Part shown: positions 2,729 to 58,178 of the stretch, one piece after another
Layout of the letters: each line of letters opens with the position of its first letter
Position numbering within the stretch: the first letter of the stretch is position 1
Assembly: GCF_007097155.1 (NCBI RefSeq)
Contig: NZ_VJWA01000001.1
Location: 682,001-746,000, forward strand
Source of the DNA: Glacieibacterium frigidum
GTDB taxonomy: Bacteria; Pseudomonadota; Alphaproteobacteria; Sphingomonadales; Sphingomonadaceae
Direction: 5' to 3'
DNA length: 64,000 nucleotides
Notes under the pieces: generated by a model
The model's database searches: none
What the model saw: only the letters and a program-made list of their open reading frames with translations
What the model was told of the DNA's origin: nothing
Translations under genes and position numbers: made by a program

Positions 2729-3832
2729 ATGTTTCGCGACCGGCATGTCGACTTCGGGGGCTCGAGGCCCGATGAACCATCGATCGGGGTCGCTATCGCG
2801 GCAGATGCGGACCTTGAGATCTTGTTGCATCGCGTCCTGCGGCTGCTTGCAGCGACCGATGTCTCCGCCTTCGTGCACCAGGGCGGCAAGGCGCCGCGCC
2901 TGCTCGGCAGGGTCGGAGCGTCAGACGATGAGGGCGGATGTTTCGGCGCGTCTCCCCAACCCGTCGGCCAGGGCCGTCCGGCCGATCGCAACGGCGTGTC
3001 GGTCGCCCGGCAGAGTGCCGATGGCGGTCCCGCCAATATCGTGATCACGATCGACGTCGACGCCACGACCGTGCTGACCGTCGTCGCGCAGCGCGAAGGC
3101 GATACCACGCTCGAGCTCGGCCTGAACGAGGAGCGTGCGGCGCGGCGTGCCGGCGACTGGATCGGCGATTACCTGCGGCTGTGGTGGCGGCTGCGTCGCG
3201 ACCAGGAGCGCAGCGAGGGCCTGCGCGACGGGCTCGACCTGTTCGGGATCGGCGTGCTGATGATCGATGCGGGCGGCGGGCTGTTCGAGGTCAATCGCGC
3301 GGCGCAGGTCATGCTCGACGATCGTGACGGGCTGACCGCGCATGACGGGCGGCTTGGAGCCGCGAACCTCAACGACGCGGCACGGCTGCAGACCGCGATC
3401 ATGCACGCCCGGACCGACCATGGCAGCCGCGACCGCTCGGGACGCCAGGATGCGCCGCTGATCAGCATCCGGCGCCGGGGGCGACGGCCGCTGTCGGTCG
3501 CGGTGATGCGCGGCGTCGCCAGCCTCGCCGGCCCCAACGCGGTGGTCATCCATGCCGTCGATCCCGAGCACGACCTGGAAAGCGCGATGGCCCCGACCTG
3601 CGCGATGTTCGGGCTGACCGGTGCCGAGACGCGCCTGACCAACCTGCTCGTCACCGGTGCCAGCCTCGCCGAGGCCGCGGCCCGGCTGCGCATCCAGGCG
3701 CCGACGGCGCGCACCTATCTGAAGCAGGCGTTCGCAAAAACCGGCACCAACCGGCAATCTTCTCTGGTTCAGCTGCTGCTGACCAGCATCGTCCGCGCAG
3801 GGCCAGGCGTGGCGCTAACCGCACTGCGCTGA
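2729..3832 (+). CDS. LuxR-type HTH regulator with PAS-like middle domain
   Basis: A 367-residue DNA-binding regulator. Start ATG 2729 is chosen because GAGGAGG ends 5-6 bases upstream. The C-terminus (about residues 290-360) carries a LuxR-type helix-turn-helix: LTGAETRLTNLLVTGASLAE, then the recognition helix region PTARTYLKQAFAKTG. The middle (about 175-260) resembles a PAS-like sensory segment (FGIGVLMIDAGGGLFEVNRA). There is no receiver domain, so it is not a classical response regulator. It lies 159 bases upstream of, and in the same direction as, the Fap-like operon, which it may control; this is inferred from position only. Confidence 0.85.
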   Translation: MFRDRHVDFGGSRPDEPSIGVAIAADADLEILLHRVLRLLAATDVSAFVHQGGKAPRLLGRVGASDDEGGCFGASPQPVGQGRPADRNGVSVARQSADGGPANIVITIDVDATTVLTVVAQREGDTTLELGLNEERAARRAGDWIGDYLRLWWRLRRDQERSEGLRDGLDLFGIGVLMIDAGGGLFEVNRAAQVMLDDRDGLTAHDGRLGAANLNDAARLQTAIMHARTDHGSRDRSGRQDAPLISIRRRGRRPLSVAVMRGVASLAGPNAVVIHAVDPEHDLESAMAPTCAMFGLTGAETRLTNLLVTGASLAEAAARLRIQAPTARTYLKQAFAKTGTNRQSSLVQLLLTSIVRAGPGVALTALR

Positions 3833-3991
3833 TCCAGGTAAAGCGTTTCGGCCCCTCATCCAGATGGGCGGGTTGCATCGGTACGGGCGATGCCGCCGCT
3901 GCGGCCCCTCGACTACTACGCTGACGGCCCTCCGAACCGGATGGGCGCCGGTCGTCCGTCCGGATGTTCGTAGCGTAAAGGATTAGTCTCG

Positions 3992-5599
3992 ATGAAGAAT
4001 CTGTTCATGATCACCGTGTCGGCGGGCGCGATGGCGTTCGCGAGCATGGCGACCGCCCAGTCGGCCACGCCCAACACCAGCAGCTCGTACAACGACCAGT
4101 CGGTCGCCGATTCGTACAACGACAATTCGACCGCCAGCACCGACAACACGCGCAACACGTCGACCAACACCGACAACACGCAGACCACGACGAACACCGA
4201 TGGCTCGACGCGCACCAGCAGCAGCGACAGCAGCAGCGGCGTCGTCTCGGGCACCGTGGGCGCGAACAACGGCGGCTCGGCCAGCGACTACCGCGATTCG
4301 TCGAACAACAGCGACAACTCGGTCCGCAACACGTCGACGAGCACCGACAACACGCGGAATACGTCGACCAACACCGACAACACCCGCAACACGTCGACCA
4401 CGACGACGAACACCGACAACAGCGACAGCTCGCAGCGCTACAGCGACAGCAGCGGCGTCGGGAGCGGCACGGTCGGTGCCAACAACGGCGGCAGCGCCAG
4501 CGACAGCAGCGACAATTCGGTGCGCAACACGACGACCAGCACCGACAACACGCGCAACACGTCGACGATGACGACGAACACCGACAATAGCGACAATTCG
4601 TACAGCGACAGCAGCGGCGTCGGCAGCGGCACCGTCGGCGCCAACAACGGCGGCAGCGCCAGCGACAGCCGCGACATGTCGGATCGCAGCGACAATTCGG
4701 TGCGCAACACCACGACGACCACCACCGACGCCAGCGCCGCGAACGCCGGCACGGTCGGCGCCAACAACGGCGGCACCGCGACCGACAACAGCGACCGCTC
4801 GACCAACGAGCAGACGTACAACTCGAACGATCAGCGCACGACCAACACCGACAACACGCGCAACACGACGCGCAACACCGACAACAGCGACAACTCGATG
4901 CGCACGACGACGACGAACACCGACAACAGCGACAATTCGCAGCGCACGCGGACCACGACCACGACCAACACCGATGCCAGCAGCGCCACCGGTGCCCAGG
5001 TTGCGGCGAACAACGGCGGCAGCGCCAGCGACAGCCGCGACATGTCGGACAGCTCGACCAACGGCTCGTACAACGACAGCTCGAACAACTCGGTCAACGA
5101 CTCGGGTAACGACAGCTCGCAGCGCACGGCCAACACCAGCTCGGGCAGCGGCTCCAGCGTCGGTGGCGGGTCGGCGACCTATAGCGACAGCTCGACCTAC
5201 ACCTACGGCTACGCCACGACCACGGCACCGGGCACGGCCGCGACGAACAACCAGTTCGGCGGCGGGTCGGTCGTCTCGTCCTCGACGCTCGCGGGCTACG
5301 TGACTGGCAACAGCGTCAGCTACGACATCCCGGGCAGCGGCGGCAGCGGCACCAGCAACGGCGGCACCGCCACCGATCCGACCGGCGGCTCGACGACGAG
5401 CGGCCAGCCGGGCGGCACGGCCACGGGCGCCGCGGCGTCGGGTTCGGTGAACAACAGCCTGAACGTCTCGGGCTCGGCGTTCCAGAACTTCGCAGGGTTG
5501 CAGGGCCTCAACCAGAACACCGGCGTCGGCGCGTTGCAGAACGCCTCGGTCAACGTCGCGGTGTCGGCGGGCACGATCAACGTCGGCGGTCCGCGCTGA
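3992..5599 (+). CDS. Secreted repetitive Asn/Ser/Thr/Asp-rich protein, candidate amyloid subunit
   Basis: A 535-residue protein with a signal peptide at residues 1-22 (FASMATA|Q). The mature chain has no Cys, His, Lys or Trp and no Leu, Ile or Phe between residues 23 and 420; it is almost entirely Asn, Ser, Thr, Asp, Gly and Arg. Short TDNTRNT-like motifs alternate with five copies of a GTVGANNGGSASD-like unit at 87, 159, 213, 253 and 335. After residue 420 the chain becomes less charged and ends in a 32-residue module (493-524) shared with the next gene. As first gene before a C39 peptidase and a FapF-like barrel, it takes the place of FapB/FapC, the fibre subunits of Pseudomonas. It lacks their C-terminal CxxC and their repeat sequence, so subunit status is inference. 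AAGGA precedes the ATG by 9 bases. Confidence 0.8.
   Translation: MKNLFMITVSAGAMAFASMATAQSATPNTSSSYNDQSVADSYNDNSTASTDNTRNTSTNTDNTQTTTNTDGSTRTSSSDSSSGVVSGTVGANNGGSASDYRDSSNNSDNSVRNTSTSTDNTRNTSTNTDNTRNTSTTTTNTDNSDSSQRYSDSSGVGSGTVGANNGGSASDSSDNSVRNTTTSTDNTRNTSTMTTNTDNSDNSYSDSSGVGSGTVGANNGGSASDSRDMSDRSDNSVRNTTTTTTDASAANAGTVGANNGGTATDNSDRSTNEQTYNSNDQRTTNTDNTRNTTRNTDNSDNSMRTTTTNTDNSDNSQRTRTTTTTNTDASSATGAQVAANNGGSASDSRDMSDSSTNGSYNDSSNNSVNDSGNDSSQRTANTSSGSGSSVGGGSATYSDSSTYTYGYATTTAPGTAATNNQFGGGSVVSSSTLAGYVTGNSVSYDIPGSGGSGTSNGGTATDPTGGSTTSGQPGGTATGAAASGSVNNSLNVSGSAFQNFAGLQGLNQNTGVGALQNASVNVAVSAGTINVGGPR
4250..5032 (+). repeat. Five coding repeats, GTVGANNGG type
   Basis: Imperfect in-frame repeats at 4250-4288, 4466-4504, 4628-4666, 4748-4786 and 4994-5032 each encode 13 residues of the form GTVGANNGGSASD (the fifth is AQVAANNGGSASD). 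Linkers of 27-69 residues rich in TDN and RNT motifs separate them. Spacing is irregular and the units diverge at the DNA level, which points to an old repeat array maintained at protein level rather than a recent slippage product. Confidence 0.85.
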
Positions 5600-5620
5600 C
5601 CTGACCGGTCCCTTCGAGTC

Positions 5621-5655
5621 CGGGGCGGGCGTTCGCGCCCGCCCCGGCTCTTCTC
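5621..5655 (+). terminator. Perfect GC hairpin with TTCG loop between operon genes 1 and 2
   Basis: CGGGGCGGGCG (5621-5631) pairs perfectly with CGCCCGCCCCG (5636-5646) around a TTCG tetraloop, followed by GCTCTTCTC. The stem is very stable but the T-tract is weak. It lies 22 bases after the repetitive protein's stop and 27 bases before the next start. I infer partial termination or 3'-end protection, giving more transcript of the first gene than of the secretion genes. Confidence 0.55.
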
Positions 5656-5672
5656 ATGCCGAAAGACACCAC

Positions 5673-5993
5673 ATGGTTCGCGATCTTCTCATCTTCGCGG
5701 TCGGCTTAAGTGCCGCAACCGCAGCGTCCGCCGGCCCGTTCGACGCTGCGCCAGTCGCCGACACCGCGCTCGCCACCATCGCCGGCAAGGCCGATCCAGT
5801 GCAGGCCGTCCTCGCCAGCAACAGTTCGACGGTCGCCAACAACCGCATCGTCGGCATCTCGACGACCGGCGTCATCAGCATCGACGGCAACGCCTTCCAG
5901 AACCTCAACGGCCTCGCGGTGATCAATGCCAACACCGGCAACAACGTCGCGATCAACGCCTCGCTGAACGTCAATGTCGCGATCCGCCCGTAA
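5673..5993 (+). CDS. Small secreted protein sharing the C-terminal module of the repetitive protein
   Basis: A 106-residue protein with a signal peptide (about residues 1-20, ATAASA). Residues 30-39 (DTALATIAGK) match a DxxLAxxxG[G/K] motif also found at the same place in the protein at 6678. Residues 71-102 align without gaps to residues 493-524 of the preceding protein, with 17 of 32 identical (key residues GxAFQN, NxNTG, NAS, NV). It is the best candidate for a minor subunit or nucleator, in the role of FapA or FapB, but no direct homology to those is claimed. The next gene starts inside its last codons, so the two are translationally coupled. Confidence 0.75.
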   Translation: MVRDLLIFAVGLSAATAASAGPFDAAPVADTALATIAGKADPVQAVLASNSSTVANNRIVGISTTGVISIDGNAFQNLNGLAVINANTGNNVAINASLNVNVAIRP

Positions 5994-6681
5994 CGTCGCG
6001 GTGGTCGCGCTGCTGCTCGGCGGGTGCAGCGCGGCGACGCCGTCGGGCACCAATCGGCTGGCGATCGGCAATTTCGAGGCCGGGCTTCCGGTCGCGTCGA
6101 TGTACGAGCGCCGCTTCGCCACCGTCATCCGCCAGAATTACGATTTCAGCTGCGGGTCCGCCGCGCTCGCGACGCTGCTGCGCTTTCATTACGCGCGCCC
6201 CGTCGACGAGCAGGCGACCTTCGTCGGCATGTGGGCGGGCGGCGACCGCGCCGCGATCCGCAAGCTGGGCTTCTCGCTCCTCGACATGAAGCGCTACCTG
6301 GCGGCGAACGGCCTCAGCGCCGACGGCTACCAGGTCAGCCTCGCGCAGATCGCGAAGGCGCGCATCCCCGGCATCGCGCTGATCGAGACCGGCGGCTACA
6401 AGCATTTCGTCGTCGTGAAGGGCATCAAGCAGGGCCTGGGCGACGAGACCGTGCTGCTCGGCGACCCCTCGACGGGCCTGCGCCGCATGCCGGTGCACGA
6501 ATTCATCAAGGCGTGGAACGGCGTGTTCTTCGTCGTCGGCACGTCGGGGCCCGAGGTCCAGGCGACCTTCGCCCGCGCGTCGGAGCTGGCGCTCGCGCCG
6601 GGCGCGCGCACGACACTTCAGATGGAGCCGATCAGTCAGGCCGCGCTGGCGCTGACGCGGCCGGGACCGGGTGACCTATGA
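5974..6681 (+). CDS. C39-type cysteine peptidase lipoprotein, FapD-like
   Basis: A 235-residue protein with a lipoprotein signal (VVALLLGGC, Cys18) and one papain-like C39 domain at about residues 44-190. All expected catalytic residues are present: oxyanion Gln54, Cys60 in DFSCGSAALATLL, His144 in GGYKHFVVVKG and Asp164 in LLGDPSTG. C39 peptidases usually cut after double-glycine leaders. In the Pseudomonas Fap system the C39-like FapD is needed for export of the fibre subunits. This gene overlaps its upstream neighbour by 20 bases and the next by ATGA, so the products are expected together. Proteolytic activity is predicted from the intact triad; the target is inferred. Confidence 0.85.
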   Translation: MSRSARNVAVVALLLGGCSAATPSGTNRLAIGNFEAGLPVASMYERRFATVIRQNYDFSCGSAALATLLRFHYARPVDEQATFVGMWAGGDRAAIRKLGFSLLDMKRYLAANGLSADGYQVSLAQIAKARIPGIALIETGGYKHFVVVKGIKQGLGDETVLLGDPSTGLRRMPVHEFIKAWNGVFFVVGTSGPEVQATFARASELALAPGARTTLQMEPISQAALALTRPGPGDL

Positions 6682-7334
6682 TCGCTGCCGCACTCGTCGC
6701 CGCGACGCTGTTCAGCGCCGTGCCGCTGCCCGATCCTGTCCTCGCCGCGCAGCGCGGGGGCATCCTGCTGCCCGACGGATCTAGCGTCGCGATCGGCATC
6801 GCGCTCGAGACTCGCATCGACGGCGTCCTCGCGCTGCGCACCATGTTCTCGACCGAGACGTCGGGCGTGCAGGTCTTCGCCGGCAACGGTCAGGCCGCGT
6901 CCGACGACGGCACGACCCCCGCGACGACCGGCTGGATGATGCCCGAGGTCAGGATCACCCGCACCGGCGTCGGCACGACCATTGCTGCCGCGCCTGCGGC
7001 CGGCGTTTCGCAGATCCGCTTCGGCACCGTGACCGCGGCTCCGTCGGGTCCGGCGCTCGACCTCGACGGCGGGCGCAGCGTCGCGACCCAGTTCGGCACG
7101 GTGCAGGCGCTGCAGACCGCGAACGGCACGATCGTGCAGCTGACCGGTCCCGACCTGACGGTGCAGCAGAGCATCGGACAGGCGATCGGCACCGTCGTCG
7201 CGAATACCGCCGATAACCGGATTATCGATACAGTAACCTCAGTTAACATTGACTTGCGCGGCATGGTTATACCGTCGGGCATGACCTCTGCGCTCGAAGC
7301 AGTGGCGATTTCGGTCGCGACGCGCGGGCGCTGA
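6678..7334 (+). CDS. Secreted protein in the FapE position
   Basis: A 218-residue protein starting at the ATG of an ATGA overlap with the peptidase gene. A short signal-like N-terminus (1-16) is followed by DPVLAAQRGG (19-28), a double-glycine motif matching residues 30-39 of the small protein at 5673. The body is rich in Gly, Thr, Val and Ala, without Cys. Near residue 175 ANTADN starts a stretch weakly like the NTGNN part of the shared C-terminal module. Size and position match FapE, between the C39 peptidase and the barrel, but I cannot confirm sequence homology. Likely an extracellular or periplasmic accessory. Confidence 0.7.
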   Translation: MIAAALVAATLFSAVPLPDPVLAAQRGGILLPDGSSVAIGIALETRIDGVLALRTMFSTETSGVQVFAGNGQAASDDGTTPATTGWMMPEVRITRTGVGTTIAAAPAAGVSQIRFGTVTAAPSGPALDLDGGRSVATQFGTVQALQTANGTIVQLTGPDLTVQQSIGQAIGTVVANTADNRIIDTVTSVNIDLRGMVIPSGMTSALEAVAISVATRGR

Positions 7335-7350
7335 CAAGCAAGGAACGATT

Positions 7351-8637
7351 ATGCGCCGTACCGGGACCTGGGCCTGTCTGCTGCCCGTTGCGCTGGCTGC
7401 CGCACCGCTGCATGCCGAACCCGTCTTCGACAGCCTGAAGGCCGAGATCGCGGCACAGCGGCAGGAGCTCGAAACCCAGCGCCTGCGCCTGCAGAAGCTC
7501 GAGGACCGGTTGCTCGGGCTCAGCCGCGGCACCGCCGCCGCCGACCAGATTGCCGCGCCGTCGCCGCTCGCCCCCGATCCCGCCGCACCGCCGTCGTCGC
7601 CGGTCCCGGGCACCCAGGTCGTCGGCGTCGCGCCGCCCGAGCGCGACCGCGCACCCGAGGTCGCGGTGATGTCCGAACAGGGCGGCATCGTCACCCGCGC
7701 CGGCCAGTTCACCGTCGAGCCCAGCTTCGAATATGCCCGCGCCGACCGCAACCGCGTGATCTTCCGCGGCATCGAGGTGCCGCAGTCGGTGCTCGTCGGC
7801 GTGTTCGATATCAACGAGAGCCGCCAGGACATCCTGACTGCAGCGCTCGGCCTGCGCTACGGCGTCAGTTCGCGGATCGAGCTCAACGGCCGCGTGCCCT
7901 TCGTCTACCGCAACGACGTGTCGGTGCTGACCGCCGCGGCGCCCAACCAGAACAGCAGCGTCGACCGGTCGGACGTGCCGGCACGCGGCCGCAACATCGG
8001 CGATGTCGAGTTCGGCGCGCGGTACCAGCTGACCAGCGGCCGGCGCGGCTTCCCCTATCTGATCGCCGGCATCCAGGCGGTCGCGCCGACGGGGAGCAAC
8101 CCATTTACCGTGCGCCGCGACACCGGCACCGGCGTCGCGCTGCGCTCGGCGACGGGCGCGGGTTTCTGGGGCGTCACCCCGACGCTGACCGCGCTGCTGC
8201 CGACTGACCCGGCGGTGCTGTTCGGCTCGCTCGGCTATACGCGCAACTTCGGGCGCAGCTTCGAAGGGGTGCAGCTCAGCCAGGACGTGCTGATCGACTA
8301 CGTCAAACCCGGCGACGCGATCCAGGGCAGCGCCGGCATCGGTATCTCGCTCAACCCGCGCGTCGCGCTCAGCCTCGGCTATGCGCACAGCTGGTCGTTC
8401 GGGACGCGCACCGTCGGCCGCGCCATCCAGCGCGGCGGGCTGACCGGCCCGACGACCAGCGCGCCGTTCGACAGCCGGCTGCGCGATCTGCAGGTTGCGC
8501 GATTGCTGTTCGGCGTCAGCTACCGCACATCGCCGTCGACGACGGTCAACTGGAACGTCGAGCTGGGTGCAACTGCGGATGCCCCCGACGTCCGCACGAC
8601 GCTGCGCATCCCGTTCAGCTTCGGCGGCCGGAACTAG
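7351..8637 (+). CDS. Outer-membrane beta-barrel with N-terminal coiled coil, FapF-like
   Basis: A 428-residue protein: signal peptide (1-22), coiled coil (about 26-57, heptad pattern in AQRQELETQRLRLQKLEDRL), Pro-rich linker (about 70-102), then a barrel from about 115 with the entry segment GGIVTRAGQFTVEPSFEYAR and repeated amphipathic strands to the end. FapF of Pseudomonas is a trimeric outer-membrane pore of about 430 residues with exactly this order: periplasmic coiled coil, linker, barrel. The length and the 'V-EPSFxY' entry strand agree with it from memory. Inferred role: export channel for the secreted proteins encoded upstream. The gene closes the operon and ends 9 bases from the convergent paoC-like gene. 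Confidence 0.8.
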   Translation: MRRTGTWACLLPVALAAAPLHAEPVFDSLKAEIAAQRQELETQRLRLQKLEDRLLGLSRGTAAADQIAAPSPLAPDPAAPPSSPVPGTQVVGVAPPERDRAPEVAVMSEQGGIVTRAGQFTVEPSFEYARADRNRVIFRGIEVPQSVLVGVFDINESRQDILTAALGLRYGVSSRIELNGRVPFVYRNDVSVLTAAAPNQNSSVDRSDVPARGRNIGDVEFGARYQLTSGRRGFPYLIAGIQAVAPTGSNPFTVRRDTGTGVALRSATGAGFWGVTPTLTALLPTDPAVLFGSLGYTRNFGRSFEGVQLSQDVLIDYVKPGDAIQGSAGIGISLNPRVALSLGYAHSWSFGTRTVGRAIQRGGLTGPTTSAPFDSRLRDLQVARLLFGVSYRTSPSTTVNWNVELGATADAPDVRTTLRIPFSFGGRN

Positions 8638-12554: not shown

Positions 12555-14495
12555 TCAGAACACCAGGCGAAGGCCGCCGGTGATGCCGTTGATGTTGCGG
12601 TCCTTGGCGAACTCGCCGGTGTAATCGACGACGAGCGACAAGGGGCTGGTCGCGCCGCTGACCGTGAAGCCCGCGCCCGCGGTGTAGTAGCTGCGGCGCA
12701 GCGGCGTCGGCGTGAAGGCCAGCGCGCCGTTGTTGCCGGTGCCCGCAAAGCCGAAGCTGAAGGCCGCCTCGCGGTCGTCCTTGAACTCGTAGCGATAGGC
12801 ACCGCGGACTTCGGGACGCACCGTCGCGTTGCCGACGGTGAACTCGCCGCCGACCTTGGCGCCGAAGTTGCCGAGGACCGACTCATAGGTCGTGCGGCCC
12901 AGCGTCAGCGCGCCGATGCCCGTGCCGTCGCTGAACCCGTCGATCTTGACGCGGGCGTAGCGGGCACCGGCGAACGGCTCGAGGACGAAGCCGCCGGCCT
13001 TGATGTTGATGCCGACCGTACCGCCGCCGAAGTAGGTGCGGCTCTCGGTCGTCGAGGCGAAGTCGAGTGCGGTGGTGCCGCCGCCGAACTGCACCGTGCG
13101 GCGCAGGTCGTAATCGGCCTCGCCGTACGAACCGAACAGGTCGATGAAGCCCGGCCCCAGGCGCGCCGTCGCGTACCCGCCGACGAACCAGTTCTCGATC
13201 TTCGAATTACGCGTGCTGCCGAGGCGGACGCGGGCATCGTCGTAGCCGCCGGTGATGCCGACCAGCAGGTTCTCGCGCAGGCGCAGATCGACGCCGCCAA
13301 TGACGCCGGCTGCGCCATACTCGACGCGGCTGCGGTCGGTGGCGGCGTCGTAGCGCCCCTCACGCCCGCTCGCGACGAGGAAGCTGCCGATCTTGGCATC
13401 GCCGCCGACGCGGTTGCCGGTGCCGCCGTCGCGGAAGTCGCGCAGGTAGCGCTGCAGCGTGTCCTGCTGGAACTCGACGGTGCGCAGCGTCACTTCGGGC
13501 AGCAGCGAATAGGCGGCGGGCGTCAGCTGCGACAGTGCATCGGCGCGGGCACCGGGGGCGAGGCCGTCGATCGACGCGAACAGCGCGCCGAGCCCGGCGC
13601 CGGGGACGCCAACGAAATTGTCAAGCGCGCCGCCGACCGCGGTCTGGTTGGCGGTCGTGCCGAAGCTGGCGACGCTCGGCAGCGCGATGGCGAGGCCGGT
13701 GTAGGTCTGGCCCGCGGTGCCGACGGTGCCGATCAGCGTCGCGGCGCCCGTCGCCAGGTTCAGGCTGTACAGCGAGGTCGTGCCCGTCGCCGGCGAGGTG
13801 AAGCTGGCGAGCACGGTGCCGTCGCGGCCGATGTCGAAGCCGGCGGCATCGGTGCTCGTCACGCCGGTCGCGCCGACGGTGAACAGCTGGCCCGAATTGG
13901 GCGACACGGGCGCCGAATTGACGCTGCCCTGCGTCGCCAGAACGCCGCGGCCGGTGTCGATGACGTACAGCGTCGTCGGCGTCGCGCCCGGCAGGTTGTT
14001 GGTATAGGCGGCGGCCGTGACCCGCGGTGCGGTGCCGAAGCCCGCATCACCCGCGGCATAGGCGAGCGGCGCGTCGGTCGCGGCGAGCGCGCCGTTGTCG
14101 GGGTTCAGGCGCAGGTCCTGGCCCGCGCTGGTGACGACGCGAATGCGGTCGACCGACGGGTTGAAGTCGACGCCCGCGGCGGTGCCGGTGATCACCACCG
14201 GCGCACCGAGCGCAGTGGCGCCACCGGTCAGCGGGTTGATCGCATAGACGCGGCCGGTGCTGCCGAGGCCGTAAAGGACGCGCGGCGAGGCGGGGCGATA
14301 GTCGAAGCCGAGCAGCGTTTCGCCCGCCTGCAGGCCGGTCAGCGCGGTGGTCGAGCTGACGGTGCCGGGGGTCGCGCTGTCGACGCGGATCAGGCGGTTG
14401 GCGTTATCAAGGAAATTGACCGGCACGGCGTGCGCCGCGCCACCCGACACGAGCGCCAGCGCAAGGCTGGCGGAGAGCTTCGATCGGATAAACAT
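12555..14495 (-). CDS. DUF4394 protein with autotransporter barrel
   Basis: A 646-residue surface protein. Residues 1-23 are a signal peptide. Residues about 30-260 form a DUF4394 domain, a beta-propeller-like region with repeats such as LLGFDYRPASPRVLYGLGST and RVYAINPLTGGATALG. After a helical linker (about 320-360, ending LLPEVTLRTVEFQQDTLQRY) the last 280 residues form an autotransporter barrel finishing in GGLRLVF. The passenger is unusual in being a DUF4394 propeller rather than the long beta-helix typical of type V secretion. AAGGA precedes the ATG. Its ligand or function is unknown. Confidence 0.85.
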   Translation of the reverse strand: MFIRSKLSASLALALVSGGAAHAVPVNFLDNANRLIRVDSATPGTVSSTTALTGLQAGETLLGFDYRPASPRVLYGLGSTGRVYAINPLTGGATALGAPVVITGTAAGVDFNPSVDRIRVVTSAGQDLRLNPDNGALAATDAPLAYAAGDAGFGTAPRVTAAAYTNNLPGATPTTLYVIDTGRGVLATQGSVNSAPVSPNSGQLFTVGATGVTSTDAAGFDIGRDGTVLASFTSPATGTTSLYSLNLATGAATLIGTVGTAGQTYTGLAIALPSVASFGTTANQTAVGGALDNFVGVPGAGLGALFASIDGLAPGARADALSQLTPAAYSLLPEVTLRTVEFQQDTLQRYLRDFRDGGTGNRVGGDAKIGSFLVASGREGRYDAATDRSRVEYGAAGVIGGVDLRLRENLLVGITGGYDDARVRLGSTRNSKIENWFVGGYATARLGPGFIDLFGSYGEADYDLRRTVQFGGGTTALDFASTTESRTYFGGGTVGINIKAGGFVLEPFAGARYARVKIDGFSDGTGIGALTLGRTTYESVLGNFGAKVGGEFTVGNATVRPEVRGAYRYEFKDDREAAFSFGFAGTGNNGALAFTPTPLRRSYYTAGAGFTVSGATSPLSLVVDYTGEFAKDRNINGITGGLRLVF

Positions 14496-20678: not shown

Positions 20679-21344
20679 TCAGGCGGTCAGGACGGCGCGG
20701 CGGCGCATCGCGGCGCCGACCATGCCGAAACCGGCGATCATCAGCGCCCAGGTCGCGGGTTCGGGGACGACCGGACCGTCGGCGACGACGCCGAGGTGCA
20801 GGTTGTCGAGCGACGGCCAAACACCGATTTCGTCACCGATCAGGAAGGAGAGCGAAACGAGGGTCGAGTCGGTGATGAAGCCGCGGAAGGTGCTGGTCGT
20901 CGGGTTCAAAGCGATCTCGGTAACCGTGCCGCTCGAGTCGGTGGCGAGGATCGTGATCGACGTCGCCGCTGTCGTGAAGCCGTTGATGTCCGAGCCGAAG
21001 AAGAAGCCGCCCGCCGCCTGGATGCCCGGTGCGAAGCCGTCGAGAACGACGGTATCGAAGCGGTTGTTGGTCGACAGGAAAATGTCGGTGCCGTCGTCGG
21101 AGCCGGGGAAGAAGTTGGTGCTCTCCGAGCCGACGGTCGCGGTGTAGCCATAAGTCCCCGCGCTACGGCTGAGCGGTCCGGGAGTGGACGAGACGGCGAG
21201 GTCGTTGAAGTCGTCAACGCCGAAGTTATCGACCGCAGCGAGAAAAGCCGCGGCGTCGGTGTAGACGGTGATGGCGGCCTGTGCCGCGCTGCCAAAGGCA
21301 AGCGACATTGCAAGTGCGAGCGGTGCAAACTTCGAGATGATCAT
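20679..21344 (-). CDS. PEPxxWA-CTERM secreted protein
   Basis: A 221-residue secreted protein. GGAG lies 6 bases before ATG 21344 (a tandem ATG is at 21347). A signal peptide ends SAAQA at about residue 23. The mature part is an Asp/Ser/Thr-rich beta-sandwich-like domain (starting FGVDDFNDLAVSSTPGPLSR) seen in other short PEP-CTERM proteins. The C-terminus is a sorting signal: VPEPATWALMIAGFGMVG then Arg-rich AAMRRR. Such tails are recognised by an exosortase, not encoded here. Function unknown. A weak 8-base stem (20639-20646 with 20668-20675) lies between it and mutS. Confidence 0.85.
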   Translation of the reverse strand: MIISKFAPLALAMSLAFGSAAQAAITVYTDAAAFLAAVDNFGVDDFNDLAVSSTPGPLSRSAGTYGYTATVGSESTNFFPGSDDGTDIFLSTNNRFDTVVLDGFAPGIQAAGGFFFGSDINGFTTAATSITILATDSSGTVTEIALNPTTSTFRGFITDSTLVSLSFLIGDEIGVWPSLDNLHLGVVADGPVVPEPATWALMIAGFGMVGAAMRRRAVLTA

Positions 21345-21616
21345 CATACTCTCCTAAACAACTACGGGTTATGCCTGACCAGCCGGGATGCCGTGCAAGG
21401 ACCGGGCCAAAATCGTGCAACCCGGATTGTTTATTGATTTGAAACGGTTGTGCAGGAGCGAACCGTGGCGCTCGAACCGAAGTGTAAGGAATCATTACAC
21501 ATAGGTGTAGATTTCAGCCGGCGACGGCGCGGGTGATGGAGGTTACGCCGCCCTCGCCCTTTCGCGATCCCTTGCGAACCCCTAAACCCGGCGCTGGTGC
21601 GGTTGGGAGGGTCACG

Positions 21617-38799: not shown

Positions 38800-39777
38800 G
38801 TGGTGAAGCGAGTTTCGATCGGGCGCCTGTGCGGTGCCGCCGTGGCGGTTTCATTGGTGGCGACGCCGCTGCCCGCCGCCGCCCAGCTGAATTCCAAAGC
38901 AGGCAAGACCGCCGAAAAGACGCGCGCCGCGGCGCAGGCGACGCTGCCCAATTGCGCGCGGCCGCTCGGCACGCTGGCGCTGGCCGAGCCCGAGACCAAG
39001 TGGTGGGGCGGCGTCGGGCTGGGCTCGCCCGAGGCGCTGATCCGCGTCTATGTCCAGAAGTCGAAGTGCTTCCGCCTCGTCAACCGCTCGAACCGCGGCA
39101 TGGAGTCGATGCAGCGCGAGCGTGATCTGGCGGGCAGCGGCGAGCTGCGCCGCGGCGGCGTCGTCGGCAAGGGCCAGATGGTCGAGGCCGACTTCACGAT
39201 GATCCCCGACATCGTCACGGGCAACAACAACAAGGGCGGCCTCAACGTCGGCGGCCTGGTCGGCGGCATCATGGGCGGTACGCTCGGCGGCATCGTCGGC
39301 GGGATCAGCATCAAGAAGAAGTCGGCGAACGTCATCCTGAACGTCGTCAACAACAAGACCAGCGAGGAGTTCGTCGCGGAAGGCCAGTCGAAGAAGTCCG
39401 ACCTCGGCTTCGGTGGCGGCGGCGGTTTCTTTGGCGGCGGCGCGCTGGGTGGTGCTGCGGTCGGCGGCTACGACAATACCGAACTGGGCCAGGTCGTCGC
39501 GCTGGCGTATCTCGACGCCTATGCCCGGCTGGTCAGCGACCTCGGCGGCATGGAGGCGGCGATCAACTCCGCGCCCGCGGCCGAAAAGGCGCTGACGCTC
39601 GGCCGTCCGGGCCGCATGTTCGCAACGCCGTCGCTCAAGGGTCGCGTCGTCAAGGCGCTCGACGCCGGCGCGATCCTCTACCCGACCGGCCAGCGCGCCC
39701 CGGGCTTCCGCGAGGTCGAGGACGAGATCGGCACCAAGGGCTGGGTGTCCGAGGCGTCGCTGCAGGTCGCGCGTTGA
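38800..39777 (+). CDS. CsgG-like exported protein with C-terminal SH3-type domain
   Basis: A 325-residue exported protein starting at GTG 38800, with GGGGAG about 7 bases upstream. Signal peptide about 1-28 (PLPAAA|Q). The core resembles the CsgG/HfaB family: ALIRVYVQKSKCFRLVNRS, RERDLAGSGELRRGG, a GGIVGGISIKKKSANVILNV strand and ALAYLDAYARLVSDL near the end. A Gly-rich insertion (about 205-222) and an SH3-like tail (about 270-325, ending GWVSEASLQVAR) are added. CsgG is the curli export pore and a lipoprotein; here there is no lipobox, so this may be periplasmic rather than a pore. No csgA, csgB, csgE or csgF is near. Confidence 0.7.
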   Translation: MVKRVSIGRLCGAAVAVSLVATPLPAAAQLNSKAGKTAEKTRAAAQATLPNCARPLGTLALAEPETKWWGGVGLGSPEALIRVYVQKSKCFRLVNRSNRGMESMQRERDLAGSGELRRGGVVGKGQMVEADFTMIPDIVTGNNNKGGLNVGGLVGGIMGGTLGGIVGGISIKKKSANVILNVVNNKTSEEFVAEGQSKKSDLGFGGGGGFFGGGALGGAAVGGYDNTELGQVVALAYLDAYARLVSDLGGMEAAINSAPAAEKALTLGRPGRMFATPSLKGRVVKALDAGAILYPTGQRAPGFREVEDEIGTKGWVSEASLQVAR

Positions 39778-53969: not shown

Positions 53970-55196
53970 TTAGGCGGTCGCGACGCCCGAGCGACGGCGG
54001 CGCGCTGCTGCGCCGACGAGGCCGAAGCCGCCGATCATCAGCGCCCAAGTGCCGGGCTCCGGCACCGCGATCGCTGCGGTCGTGTTCAGGATCTTCGTCG
54101 AGAACGACTTGGTCGGCGCTGCCAGCACGTCGAACGCGATGTTCCAGCCCATCGCGTCGTAGGCGGCGAGGTCGAGCGCGTCGATCACGCTCTGCTGGCC
54201 GAAGGCGACGGTCGGGTCGAGGATGCCGAGCTGCGGCTGGCCGGGGGTGTTGTCCTTCCAGTGCGACGCCTGACGACCGTCGCCATAGGTGCGGCCGGTC
54301 GACATGTAGGCCGGGCCGTTGGCACCCTGGAAGATGGTCAGGCCGCCGTCGATCGAGAAGTAGGGCGCATCGCCGTTGGCGATCGTGCCGCCGACCGCGA
54401 GGTCGAGAACGCCGACGCCGATCGCCGTGCTCGCGGCGCTGTAGCGGAACGAATCCCACACCGTGAAGATCGCGAAGTCGTCGAGGTTGCCCGTGAAGCC
54501 CGTGTTGGTGTCATAGACATCGACGCCCGAGCGGAAACCGAGCGCGTGGCCGATCTCGTGGATCGCGACGCCGATGAAGTCGATTGCGTTCGACGAGATG
54601 CCGTCTTCCGGGTTGAAGTCGAAGTTGAACTGGGTGCTGAACTGCACCGTGCCGTCGGCCTGGATGCCTGCGTTGGCGCCCGTGTAAGTCGGGGTGAAGC
54701 CCAGCGCCTTCAGCAGCGAGGTGTTCGCCGAGAACACGGCGTTGTTGCCGCTCTGGTCGTTGTCGAGCACGCGGGTCAGCGGCAGGGCAACGCCGGTGCC
54801 GTCCTGGCGCGGACCGGAAATCAGCGCGTCGAAGGTCGCGAAACCCGGATCGCCGGCGACCGGCGTCAGGGTCGGCAGGACGGCGCGCTGGTCGAGGCGC
54901 GAGTTGCCGGTCGCCTTGATCTGGGCGAGCGTCTGCTCGGCACTGACGACCTGCGTCGTGCTGCCGGTCGAGCCGAGGACGTTCGGCGCGAGCTGCGAGA
55001 AGCCGACGTTCAGCTTGACGTTGACGTCGTTGGTGATGAGGTTTTCCCAGAAGTTCGCGGCGGCGCGGAAGCCGTCATACGCCTGGGTACCCGGGGTGAC
55101 GTTGTTGAGATTGCGCAGTTCGATGGTCAGCGCATTGGCCGGAACGGCGGCGGCGCTCGCCAGCAGGGCGGCCCCGATCAACTTGGTGAAGCGCAT
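53970..55196 (-). CDS. Secreted zinc metalloprotease, PEPxxWA-CTERM, copy 1
   Basis: A 408-residue secreted protein of the NF038122-type putative metalloproteases. Signal peptide about 1-22 (AVPANA). The opening LTIELRN and AANFWENLITNDVNVKLNVG are shared almost residue for residue in pattern with the paralogue at 56952. The zinc motif is IDFIGVAIHEIGHALGFRSG (first His near 213). The tail is VPEPGTWALMIGGFGLVG with Arg-rich AAARRRR. It should be exported, cell-surface anchored or released through an exosortase, and cleave proteins, though substrates are unknown. Related to the 56952 gene by duplication. Confidence 0.88.
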   Translation of the reverse strand: MRFTKLIGAALLASAAAVPANALTIELRNLNNVTPGTQAYDGFRAAANFWENLITNDVNVKLNVGFSQLAPNVLGSTGSTTQVVSAEQTLAQIKATGNSRLDQRAVLPTLTPVAGDPGFATFDALISGPRQDGTGVALPLTRVLDNDQSGNNAVFSANTSLLKALGFTPTYTGANAGIQADGTVQFSTQFNFDFNPEDGISSNAIDFIGVAIHEIGHALGFRSGVDVYDTNTGFTGNLDDFAIFTVWDSFRYSAASTAIGVGVLDLAVGGTIANGDAPYFSIDGGLTIFQGANGPAYMSTGRTYGDGRQASHWKDNTPGQPQLGILDPTVAFGQQSVIDALDLAAYDAMGWNIAFDVLAAPTKSFSTKILNTTAAIAVPEPGTWALMIGGFGLVGAAARRRRSGVATA

Positions 55197-55696: not shown

Positions 55697-56857
55697 ATGC
55701 GATTCAGTACGTTTGCTTTGCTTGGTGCAGCAGCGCTCGCGCCGCTTTCGGCGGCGCACGCCGCACCTCGGGTCGCCACGGGCAGCCTCAACGGCGTCGA
55801 CTGGCGGGCGGAGAGCCGGATCATCGGCCAGACGTCGACCGCCACGGTCGTCGGCGGCGGCAACCCGATCTATCTCGGCACGGCGGCGCAGTATCGCGGC
55901 ACCGTCGGCCTGCTGATGGATTACGGCGCGGGCGGCGCGTTCGTCTGCTCGGGCAGCCTCAGCGCGAATGGCACGTCGATCATCACTGCCGCGCATTGCG
56001 TCAGCGACGGCACGTCGGCGCGGCCCAACAGCGTCACCGCGTTCTTCTACAATCCGGCCCAGGGCGATGCGGCCGAGACGCCGATCTACAGCATCGGCTC
56101 GCCGGGCGTGACCGCGGTCGACGTCGGCTTCATCCACGTGAATCCGCTGTATACCGGCGAAGTCATCGACCAGAACGACATCGCGGTGCTCAAGCTGACG
56201 GCGCCGGCCCCTTCGTTCGCGGTCGGCTATGACCTGTACACCGGCAATGATCTGACCGGCCTCGGCTTCAACGTCGCCGGCTACGGCGGTCGTTCGGACG
56301 TCGGCGGTGCGCTCGGCCAGAACCTCGGCACCGGCCGTCTGCGCCAGGGTGACAACCGCTACGACTTCGCCTTCGGCGACGACGACTTCGGCGGCTTCTT
56401 TACCGATGTCGTCGACGGCACGAACTTCTTCGGCACCGCCGACATCGAGTTCTCGTACGTCTCGGACTTCGACAACGGGCTGGCTGCCAACGATGCCTCG
56501 TGCCGCCTCGCGACCCTCGGCCTCGGCGTCGCAGCGAGCGACAAATACTGCAACACCGGCGTCGGAGCGCTCGAGGTCAACATCGCCGGTGGCGACTCGG
56601 GTGGCCCCGGCTTCATCGACGGCAAGCTCGCGTCGGTGAACAGCTACGGCCTGTCGTTCGGCGCGACCTTCGGTGACTTCAATCCGGGCCTGAACAGCAG
56701 CTGGGGCGAGTTCAGCGGCTATGCGCCGATCTTCGCCAGCCTCGCCTTCGTCCAGGGCGCAATCCCTGAGCCCGGCACCTGGGTGATGATGATCGGCGGC
56801 TTCGGCCTGGTCGGTGCGGCGTCGCGCCGTGCTCGCAGGGCTGCGCTGACCGCCTGA
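55697..56857 (+). CDS. Trypsin-like serine protease with PEP-CTERM tail
   Basis: A 386-residue secreted S1-family protease. ATG 55697 follows AAGGGG by 7 bases. Signal peptide about 1-20 (LSAAHA). The triad is His100 (SIITAAHCVSDG), Asp161 (QNDIAVLKL) and Ser301 (VAGGDSGGPGF-type, here NIAGGDSGGPGF). Cys pairs bracket the His and Ser regions. The sorting signal is IPEPGTWVMMIGGFGLVG followed by RRARR; it has Trp-Val where most have Trp-Ala. It is flanked by two metalloprotease paralogues, both on the opposite strand. Confidence 0.9.
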   Translation: MRFSTFALLGAAALAPLSAAHAAPRVATGSLNGVDWRAESRIIGQTSTATVVGGGNPIYLGTAAQYRGTVGLLMDYGAGGAFVCSGSLSANGTSIITAAHCVSDGTSARPNSVTAFFYNPAQGDAAETPIYSIGSPGVTAVDVGFIHVNPLYTGEVIDQNDIAVLKLTAPAPSFAVGYDLYTGNDLTGLGFNVAGYGGRSDVGGALGQNLGTGRLRQGDNRYDFAFGDDDFGGFFTDVVDGTNFFGTADIEFSYVSDFDNGLAANDASCRLATLGLGVAASDKYCNTGVGALEVNIAGGDSGGPGFIDGKLASVNSYGLSFGATFGDFNPGLNSSWGEFSGYAPIFASLAFVQGAIPEPGTWVMMIGGFGLVGAASRRARRAALTA

Positions 56858-56951: not shown

Positions 56952-58178
56952 TCAGGCGGCGGTCGCCACGCGGCGGCGCGCCCGCAGCGAGCTGCCGACC
57001 ATCCCGAAGCCGCCGATCATCAGCGCCCAGCTCGCCGGCTCGGGGATCCCCGCCAGCACCGCGACCTGCGCGGTCGAGAAGTTGTAGCCCTGGTTCTGCG
57101 CGACGTTGAAGTTGATGTTCCAGCCGATCGCATCGAACGCCGCGAGGTCGAGGGCGGTGATCGAGTCCATCTCGCCGTCGCAGGCGTAGGGGTTCATGAT
57201 GCCGATGAAGTTCGCGCAGGTATTGTTCGACTTCCAGTGCGACGCCTGCCACCCGTCACCATTGTACGACCCCGTCGAGAAGCCGGCGAGGTTGGTCGCG
57301 CCGCCATTGATCGAGAAGTAGCTGTTGGTGCCGGTCGACCAGTCGAGCACCGGACCGGTGCCCGGGGCGATGTTGGTCGGATCGTTGCTGTAGCGGTACA
57401 GGTCGAGCACGCTGCCCCACGAGAACTGCTGCGCGGGCAGGTTGCGGCACTGGATCGGCGACGCGGCCGAACCGCAGTTCGCGGTCGCTGCCGGGCCGCC
57501 GGTGCCGAGATAGTCGTAGTCGTCGACGCCGCTGACGAAGCCGAGCGCATGGCCGAACTCGTGGATCGCGACGCCGATGAAGTCGATCGTGTTCGCCGAG
57601 ATGCCGTCGCGCGGATCGAAGTCGAAAGCGAAGTCAGAGCTGAAGGTCACCTCGGCGTCTGCGGCGTTGGGATCGTAGTCATAGCCCAGCGCCTTGCCGT
57701 TGGCGGTGGTGAAATACAGGTTGCGGTTGTTGAAGCCGTTGGCGTTGTTGGTCGGCGTGTCCCATGCCTTGGTGTTGTTGTTGATGCCGTTGCCCGTGCC
57801 CGCTCCGGCACGGTAGCCCGGGGTGATCATGCTGAGCCCAGCGCCGGTGGGCAGGTTGTTCGTGGCGACCGTGTCGATCGTGCTGGTCGCGCCCGCGTTG
57901 AGCTGGTTGCGCACGCTGACGAAGGTGCGCTCGTCGTAGCTGCTGCCGGTGCCGCCGATGATGTTCGGCCCGAGCGGACCGAAGGAGATATCGAAGTTGA
58001 CGTTGACGTCGTTGGTGATGACGCTCTCCCAATAGAGCGCCGCGGCACGGAAACCGCGCGCTGCCTGCTCGTCGATCGCCGCGCCATTGTCGCGGAGCGT
58101 GATGGTCAGCGCCGACGCCGGCGCCGCGGACGCCATGCCGACGAGCATGGCTGTGGTGCACAAAAGCCTGATATTCAT
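56952..58178 (-). CDS. Secreted zinc metalloprotease, PEPxxWA-CTERM, copy 2
   Basis: A 408-residue paralogue of the protein at 53970, the same length. Signal peptide about 1-23 (SAAPASA). Shared features are LTITLRDNG, the YWESVITNDVNVNFDISFG block and the zinc motif DFIGVAIHEFGHALGFVSG (first His near 205). It differs by an insertion after the zinc site containing Cys pairs (ATANCGSAASPIQCRNL) and NNTCANFIG...ACDG further on, which copy 1 lacks. Tail IPEPASWALMIGGFGMVG then RARRR. Probably an exported protease with different stability or substrate. Confidence 0.88.
   Translation of the reverse strand: MNIRLLCTTAMLVGMASAAPASALTITLRDNGAAIDEQAARGFRAAALYWESVITNDVNVNFDISFGPLGPNIIGGTGSSYDERTFVSVRNQLNAGATSTIDTVATNNLPTGAGLSMITPGYRAGAGTGNGINNNTKAWDTPTNNANGFNNRNLYFTTANGKALGYDYDPNAADAEVTFSSDFAFDFDPRDGISANTIDFIGVAIHEFGHALGFVSGVDDYDYLGTGGPAATANCGSAASPIQCRNLPAQQFSWGSVLDLYRYSNDPTNIAPGTGPVLDWSTGTNSYFSINGGATNLAGFSTGSYNGDGWQASHWKSNNTCANFIGIMNPYACDGEMDSITALDLAAFDAIGWNINFNVAQNQGYNFSTAQVAVLAGIPEPASWALMIGGFGMVGSSLRARRRVATAA

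Follow-up and report, generated by a model that had tools for sequence, protein, structure and literature searches.

A Fap-like secretion locus of Glacieibacterium frigidum and its relationship to Pseudomonas Fap

A block of plus-strand genes at positions 2729–8637 of a 64,000-nucleotide stretch of the Glacieibacterium frigidum genome (contig NZ_VJWA01000001.1; hereinafter, the window) raises the question whether this alphaproteobacterium encodes a fibre secretion system of the kind known as Fap in Pseudomonas, and whether such a system would be Fap proper or a relative. The locus consists of six genes, namely, a LuxR-type gene and five packed genes, and re-reading of the open reading frames recovered all five of the latter in the positions and order of the original prediction. 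They encode FIB, a secreted, repetitive, S/T/N/D/G-rich protein of 535 aa that is the proposed main fibre subunit (3992–5599); S106, a 106-aa protein with a signal peptide, a leader and a C-terminal Fap-type repeat that is the proposed minor subunit or nucleator, similar to FapB (5673–5993); a FapD-like C39 cysteine peptidase of 235 aa (5974–6681); S218, a FapE-like secreted protein of 218 aa (6678–7334); and a FapF-like outer-membrane barrel of 428 aa with a periplasmic coiled coil (7351–8637). Consecutive genes are joined by a 73-bp gap, a 20-bp overlap, a 4-bp overlap and a 16-bp gap, and this tight spacing fits a single operon. Scans for promoters and terminators yielded nothing above chance, and the Pfam scan detected neither curli genes nor a CsgG exporter at 2729–8637.

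The LuxR-type protein (2729–3832, plus strand) combines a PAS-like region with a C-terminal helix-turn-helix and matches the NCBIfam LuxR-family model (1.2e-5). A homologue adjoins the locus in 38 of the 42 related Sphingomonadales loci, a conserved linkage in line with the earlier suggestion of a natural controller; judging from this linkage, the gene likely controls the locus. No gene occupies the place of FapA between the regulator and the fibre gene.

Homology of the barrel, the peptidase and the FapE-like protein

The barrel matches FapF best in each of three comparisons, that is, among NCBIfam models (1.7e-42, full length), among PDB sequences (5.5e-31, with no real match to any other solved family) and among PDB folds. 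The assignment to the FapF type therefore held; a better match to another family, which the original prediction had named as speaking against itself, did not occur. The AF2 model (47 rows, monomer; mean pLDDT 82.9) comprises an N-terminal helix at residues 25–60 (36 residues), a short helix at 108–111 and a barrel spanning residues 115–425, approximately. In the Foldseek search with this model, the best 18 matches are all FapF chains (TMt 0.80–0.86, E-values down to 7.8e-22), followed by the COG4313 channel 4rl8 (TMt 0.70, 2.1e-10). The closest named relative of the barrel, from Polymorphobacter multimanifer, is 76% identical, and most relatives retain a PTG motif. The FapF-model score of 145.7 bits lies below the curated equivalog cut-off of 700 bits, but the canonical alphaproteobacterial FapF, at 372 bits, falls below it as well, so that this shortfall alone carries little weight.

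The peptidase (5974–6681) matches the NCBIfam FapD model (6.7e-45) and Pfam Peptidase_C39 (4.3e-16), with a FapD-model score of 153.1 bits, below the curated equivalog cut-off of 330 bits. As originally read, all three catalytic residues are in place: C60, H144 and D164 show no variation across a 12-row alignment. The N-terminal region includes a possible lipobox, LLGGC. Such lipobox-like motifs (window positions 5974–6060 and the corresponding regions of relatives) are present in 22 of 44 window-type C39 peptidases, 1 of 40 of the rearranged type described below and 2 of 15 canonical FapD; the window-type peptidases may be lipoproteins.

By profile alignment, S218 (6678–7334), encoded after the FapD-like gene, is a homologue of FapE: hhalign with canonical FapE yields 98% and an E-value of 1.4e-12, with the two profiles co-linear across 229 columns and a score of 68 vs a maximum of 5.9 among 100 column-shuffled nulls. 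The NCBIfam FapE model fails to match the window S218 and, in one rearranged-type relative, matches the leader region only (1.1e-4), and Foldseek with the S218 model detected no solved relative. Comparison of the S218 C-terminus with the C-terminal module of S106 gave a score of 24.5, exceeded by one of 150 nulls, with no match to the Fap repeat, and is only suggestive of a C-terminal repeat in S218 itself. Pfam scans of S218, FIB and S106 returned nothing useful.

Leaders and C-terminal modules of the secreted proteins

The FapE-like and S106 proteins carry, behind Sec signals, leaders that in sequence are of the bacteriocin double-glycine type. In S218, the leader (LPDPVLAAQRGG; 6726–6761, plus strand) has a predicted C39 cleavage site after Gly28, and in the AF2 model of this protein, it forms a helix (residues 19–26) that ends at the predicted cut. 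The leader of S106 (VADTALATIAGK; 5754–5789, plus strand) shows the V-12, L-7, I-4, G-2 spacing. The pattern in the FapE-like proteins is V/L-12, D-10, E-8, L-7, M/Q-4, R-3, G-2, G-1, and that across the FapE-like and S106 families together is L-12, D-10, E-8, L-7, M/I-4, G-2, G-1. Within the S218 family, L-7 is conserved in 72 of 74 proteins, R-3 in 63 and G-1 in 67, two of the exceptions being artefacts of the gene start; within the S106 family, L-7 is found in 70 of 84 and V, I or L at -4 in 61 of 84, with a variable position -1. The same leader is present in 15 of 15 canonical FapE, with Arg or Lys at -1 in place of the Gly found in FapE-like proteins. The threshold of the leader score was reached by 59 of 74 FapE-like, 56 of 84 S106 and 12 of 15 canonical FapE proteins, compared to 2–3% of shuffled N-terminal regions; because the score presets G-2 and favours matches at the other leader positions, the shuffles serve as the control and the G-2 column does not count as evidence.

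Two features of the window proteins count against the explanation favoured below: the S106 leader ends in Gly-Lys rather than Gly-Gly, and the signal region of S218 is devoid of positive charge and passes directly into the leader. With an in-frame stop just upstream of this region (6678–6761) as well, signal peptide and leader seem to be merged; the relative of S218 in locus L075 has a normal signal peptide.

In Pseudomonas, the catalytic Cys38 of FapD is required for FapC secretion and the N-terminus of FapE is processed, but a 2017 study left the target of FapD open, since the Fap proteins showed no canonical C39 site (PMC5557850). The leader with Arg or Lys at -1 is a predicted FapD cleavage site in canonical FapE, and its defined position in all 15 sequences makes for a directly testable proposal of the FapD target. 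A similar leader directly follows the signal peptide in the FilA-like proteins of four loci of the Fil type (L222, L223, L224 and L225). The leaders suggest a C39 processing principle common to Fil, Fap and the present lineage.

FIB (3992–5599) starts with a Sec-type signal peptide, judged by eye (MKNLFMITVSAGAMAFASMATAQ), and continues into a hydrophilic S/T/N/D/G-rich body in which a GTVGANNGGSASD-like motif occurs in five copies (residues 87, 159, 213, 253 and 334). FIB proteins consist mostly of S, T, N, D, G, Q and A, with 10–17% hydrophobic residues vs 19–29% in FapC, and their bodies vary widely while a C-terminal module stays. In the window, this module is found at the C-terminus of FIB (VSGSAFQNFAGLQGLNQNTGVGALQNASVNVAVSA; 5465–5569, plus strand) and again at that of S106 (IDGNAFQNLNGLAVINANTGNNVAINASLNVNVA; 5880–5984, plus strand), the two are homologous to each other (E-value 3.3e-8), and it occurs nowhere else in the genome.

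In profile–profile comparison, each module resembles a single Fap-type imperfect repeat, with the 32 repeat columns aligned in register. The FIB module scores 17.5 against the Fap-repeat profile (null maximum 14.9, with 0 of 300 column shuffles as high), the S106 module 19.1 with all 32 columns in register (null maximum 10.9, 300 shuffles), and the joint module 22.7 (null maximum 11.5, 300 column shuffles). When the module profile was run over about 1,650 neighbourhood proteins, further FIBs came first, followed by canonical FapB and FapC; in this reverse search, FapB reached 2.6e-5 and FapC 5e-4, with almost nothing else among the first 57 matches. In its spacing, the module resembles the consensus published for FapB repeat 3 (PMC12392863). 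Neither FIB nor S106 matches any Pfam or NCBIfam model, and matches of the Fap-repeat HMM to single S106 or FIB proteins are not significant, so that the relation rests on the family profiles. On these comparisons, FIB and S106 are related to the Fap subunits through one repeat each; the earlier description of the fibre proteins as unrelated-looking has to be withdrawn, given that each ends in one degenerate Fap-type repeat. Two subunit genes are thus present, each with one C-terminal module rather than three, and the lineage casts doubt on three repeats as a general requirement for Fap-type subunits. The much greater hydrophilicity of FIB relative to FapC, together with its single repeat instead of three, weakens the case for amyloid formation by FIB.

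Distribution and phylogeny of the lineage

The order FIB-S106-C39-S218-barrel is kept in all 43 close Sphingomonadales loci that were sufficiently complete to be read (42 of them judged from gene calls and composition, L075 from the list of its open reading frames), each of which contains a FIB homologue. With the same five genes in the same order in 43 of 43 loci, the arrangement is far beyond chance. The simple gene caller erred in a few loci, which were either checked or excluded: it made an antisense call in L075, missed the barrel in L184 and in L193, and missed the L221 peptidase. A rearranged form, in which the barrel gene is divergent or in line, is found in Sphingopyxis, Phenylobacterium, Asticcacaulis, Halomonas and other classes of Pseudomonadota. 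Upstream in 38 of the 39 rearranged loci with S106, a low-complexity secreted protein is encoded on the same strand, most of these proteins ending in the same module, so that a wide occurrence of the peptidase–barrel pair without a secreted repetitive partner, the other outcome that the original prediction had set against itself, was not observed. Within the bacterial family of the host, S106 is present in 27 of the 278 good genomes.

In line with the original remark on published surveys, a survey of 2013 confined Fap to the beta-, gamma- and deltaproteobacteria (PMC3792158). Fap is nevertheless not foreign to alphaproteobacteria: true fap operons (FapB, FapC, FapD, FapE and FapF) are present at two loci of the same family (L058 and L059) and in another alphaproteobacterium (L060). 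In the C39 tree, the lineage of the locus lies on one side of a branch with 99/97 support, and canonical Fap, including the alphaproteobacterial operons, forms its own group (100/99); the barrel tree agrees (Fap 97/93, window type 100/100). FapF-model scores are bimodal as well, Fap lying above 340 bits and the group of the locus at about 120–175 bits. By these phylogenies, the locus belongs to a separate, well-supported sister lineage of Pseudomonas Fap, not to Fap proper, "sister" being the simplest reading of trees without a known root. Of the diverged Fap system originally proposed, the D-E-F homology stands, backed by the profiles and the barrel fold; descent as an offshoot of Fap does not, since the locus falls in a separate clade and the fap operons of the same family group with Fap.

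The three alphaproteobacterial fap operons (L058 and L059, from genomes G043 and G015, and L060, from G221) have fapE and fapF separated by an extra gene that encodes about 200 aa. A contig of a Halomonas MAG (L149) carries a strong Fap-repeat protein (L149_00) together with a sister-type locus. Further pairs of a C39 peptidase and a coiled-coil barrel-like protein, with no fibre gene recognised, were found at L069, L070, L072 and L073, some of them next to a small protein with a bacteriocin-type GG leader.

Proposed mechanism and alternative readings

From the computed homology of all components, the gene order, the leader motif, the repeat module and the separate lineage, we infer, with a probability of roughly three in four, a Fap-type secretion and assembly system, sister to Pseudomonas Fap, that works like Fap. 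All five products would reach the periplasm via Sec, as their signal sequences indicate, and there the C39 peptidase would cut the double-glycine leader of the FapE-like protein and probably that of the 106-aa protein. The 535-aa, 106-aa and FapE-like proteins would pass unfolded through the FapF-like barrel, which, by analogy with FapF, would be trimeric, and which would be gated by the coiled coil and a plug helix. Outside the cell, the single C-terminal repeat of each fibre protein would stack into a cross-beta fibre, presumably amyloid, that the 106-aa protein would nucleate and the FapE-like protein anchor, and that would be coated by the long stretch of the 535-aa protein that is hydrophilic and rich in S/T/N/D; expression would be under the linked LuxR-type regulator.

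The locus shares with Pseudomonas Fap (PMC3792158, PMC5557850) the order subunits-D-E-F, a homologous peptidase, FapE, a coiled-coil barrel and the repeat module, and likely also Sec export, periplasmic C39 processing and FapF-type export. Unlike Fap, it represents a separate FapD/FapF lineage, lacks FapA, shows a single recognisable repeat in each subunit where Fap has three, and has a hydrophilic, S/T/N/D-rich main subunit, a LuxR-type regulator and a C39 peptidase that is possibly a lipoprotein. More tentatively, and at somewhat less than even odds, we suggest that this is a distinct system for fibre secretion and assembly, with a wide distribution among alpha-, gamma- and other Pseudomonadota, in which each subunit would contribute one cross-beta layer and removal of the Sec signal would be followed by periplasmic C39 cleavage of the leader. 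In classical Fap, the equivalent leader with its Arg or Lys at -1 would mark FapE as a substrate of FapD.

A true but diverged fapBCDEF operon that lost fapA, as many Fap-bearing genera did, would have the same B/C-D-E-F order and homology of every component as observed here, and fapA has often been lost in Fap (PMC3792158). However, the FapD and FapF trees set the locus apart with strong support, whereas the Fap of the same family groups with other Fap, the FapF-model scores fall into the two modes given above, and one recognisable repeat per subunit contrasts with the almost universal three (PMC12392863). Lineage and repeat number largely refute membership in Fap, and we consider this reading improbable. 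Less easily dismissed, albeit unlikely, is the possibility that what the barrel–peptidase pair exports is not an amyloid but a soluble protein that serves as adhesive or coat, making up a low-complexity surface layer, with the module acting as an export or anchoring signal only. Export signals often sit at the extreme C-terminus, exactly where the module lies in both substrates, and both the composition of FIB and the persistence of the module behind variable bodies agree with such a role; against it, the module matches the Fap cross-beta repeat in register over all 32 columns, and its nearest outside relatives are canonical FapB and FapC.

Two further readings have hardly any probability left. 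Fil is a putative pilus system named from Acinetobacter. Like the present locus, Fil loci (NF050078/NF050079) combine a C39 peptidase, a FapF-family barrel and a small FilA-like protein with a similar leader, and FilB (1.7e-28) and FilC (3.9e-14) are the second-best NCBIfam models; but the FapD and FapF models score much better, the Fil-type peptidases and barrels group separately with full support, and Fil loci lack S106, FIB and FapE-like genes and include additional large outer-membrane or lipoprotein-like genes that are absent here. Own clade and gene set refute membership in Fil. In a bacteriocin or small-molecule transport locus, the peptidase would process a peptide and a COG4313-type channel would move hydrophobic molecules. 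A C39 peptidase with double-glycine leaders is indeed typical of bacteriocin maturation, and the COG4313 channels (Pput2725, PDB 4rl8), with the next nearest barrel fold, share the PTG motif; these, however, are uptake channels without a C39 peptidase or fibre partner, show no sequence match and give a much weaker fold match than FapF (TMt 0.70, 2e-10 vs 0.83, 8e-22), while the locus contains no ABC transporter, its components have Sec-type N-termini and fibre partners are near-universal. The closer FapF fold, the lack of an ABC transporter and the fibre partners strongly disfavour this reading.

The favoured Fap-type sister system can be placed among published surveys. FapD and FapF belong to larger families (2013 survey, PMC3792158), and colocalised fapD–fapF homologues are on record in five further phyla (2018 review, PMC6173800), so that the pair extends beyond Fap proper and the lineage of the locus probably lies within that wider set. 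For those pairs, the main text of the review gives no substrates, leaders or fibre modules; the present analysis defines them for Pseudomonadota. The GTDB screens of 2025 called for a match to the FapB/C repeat model (PMC12392863, PMC12822426) and for this reason would probably miss the lineage, whose repeats are not found one by one. No description of a FapF-like sister system was found in the open papers searched.

Elsewhere in the window, a CsgG-family protein (Pfam PF03783, 1.4e-8) is encoded on the plus strand at 38857–39774 (possible start 38800), 30 kb from the locus and with no curli neighbours; it was not listed in the whole-genome family search, which returned only a weaker one on another contig. 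An autotransporter with a DUF4394 passenger is encoded on the minus strand (12555–14495). Four PEP-CTERM proteins, one of them trypsin-like and two weakly matrixin-like (20679–21347, 53970–55196, 55718–56857 and 56952–58148), point to an exosortase sorting system in this genome.
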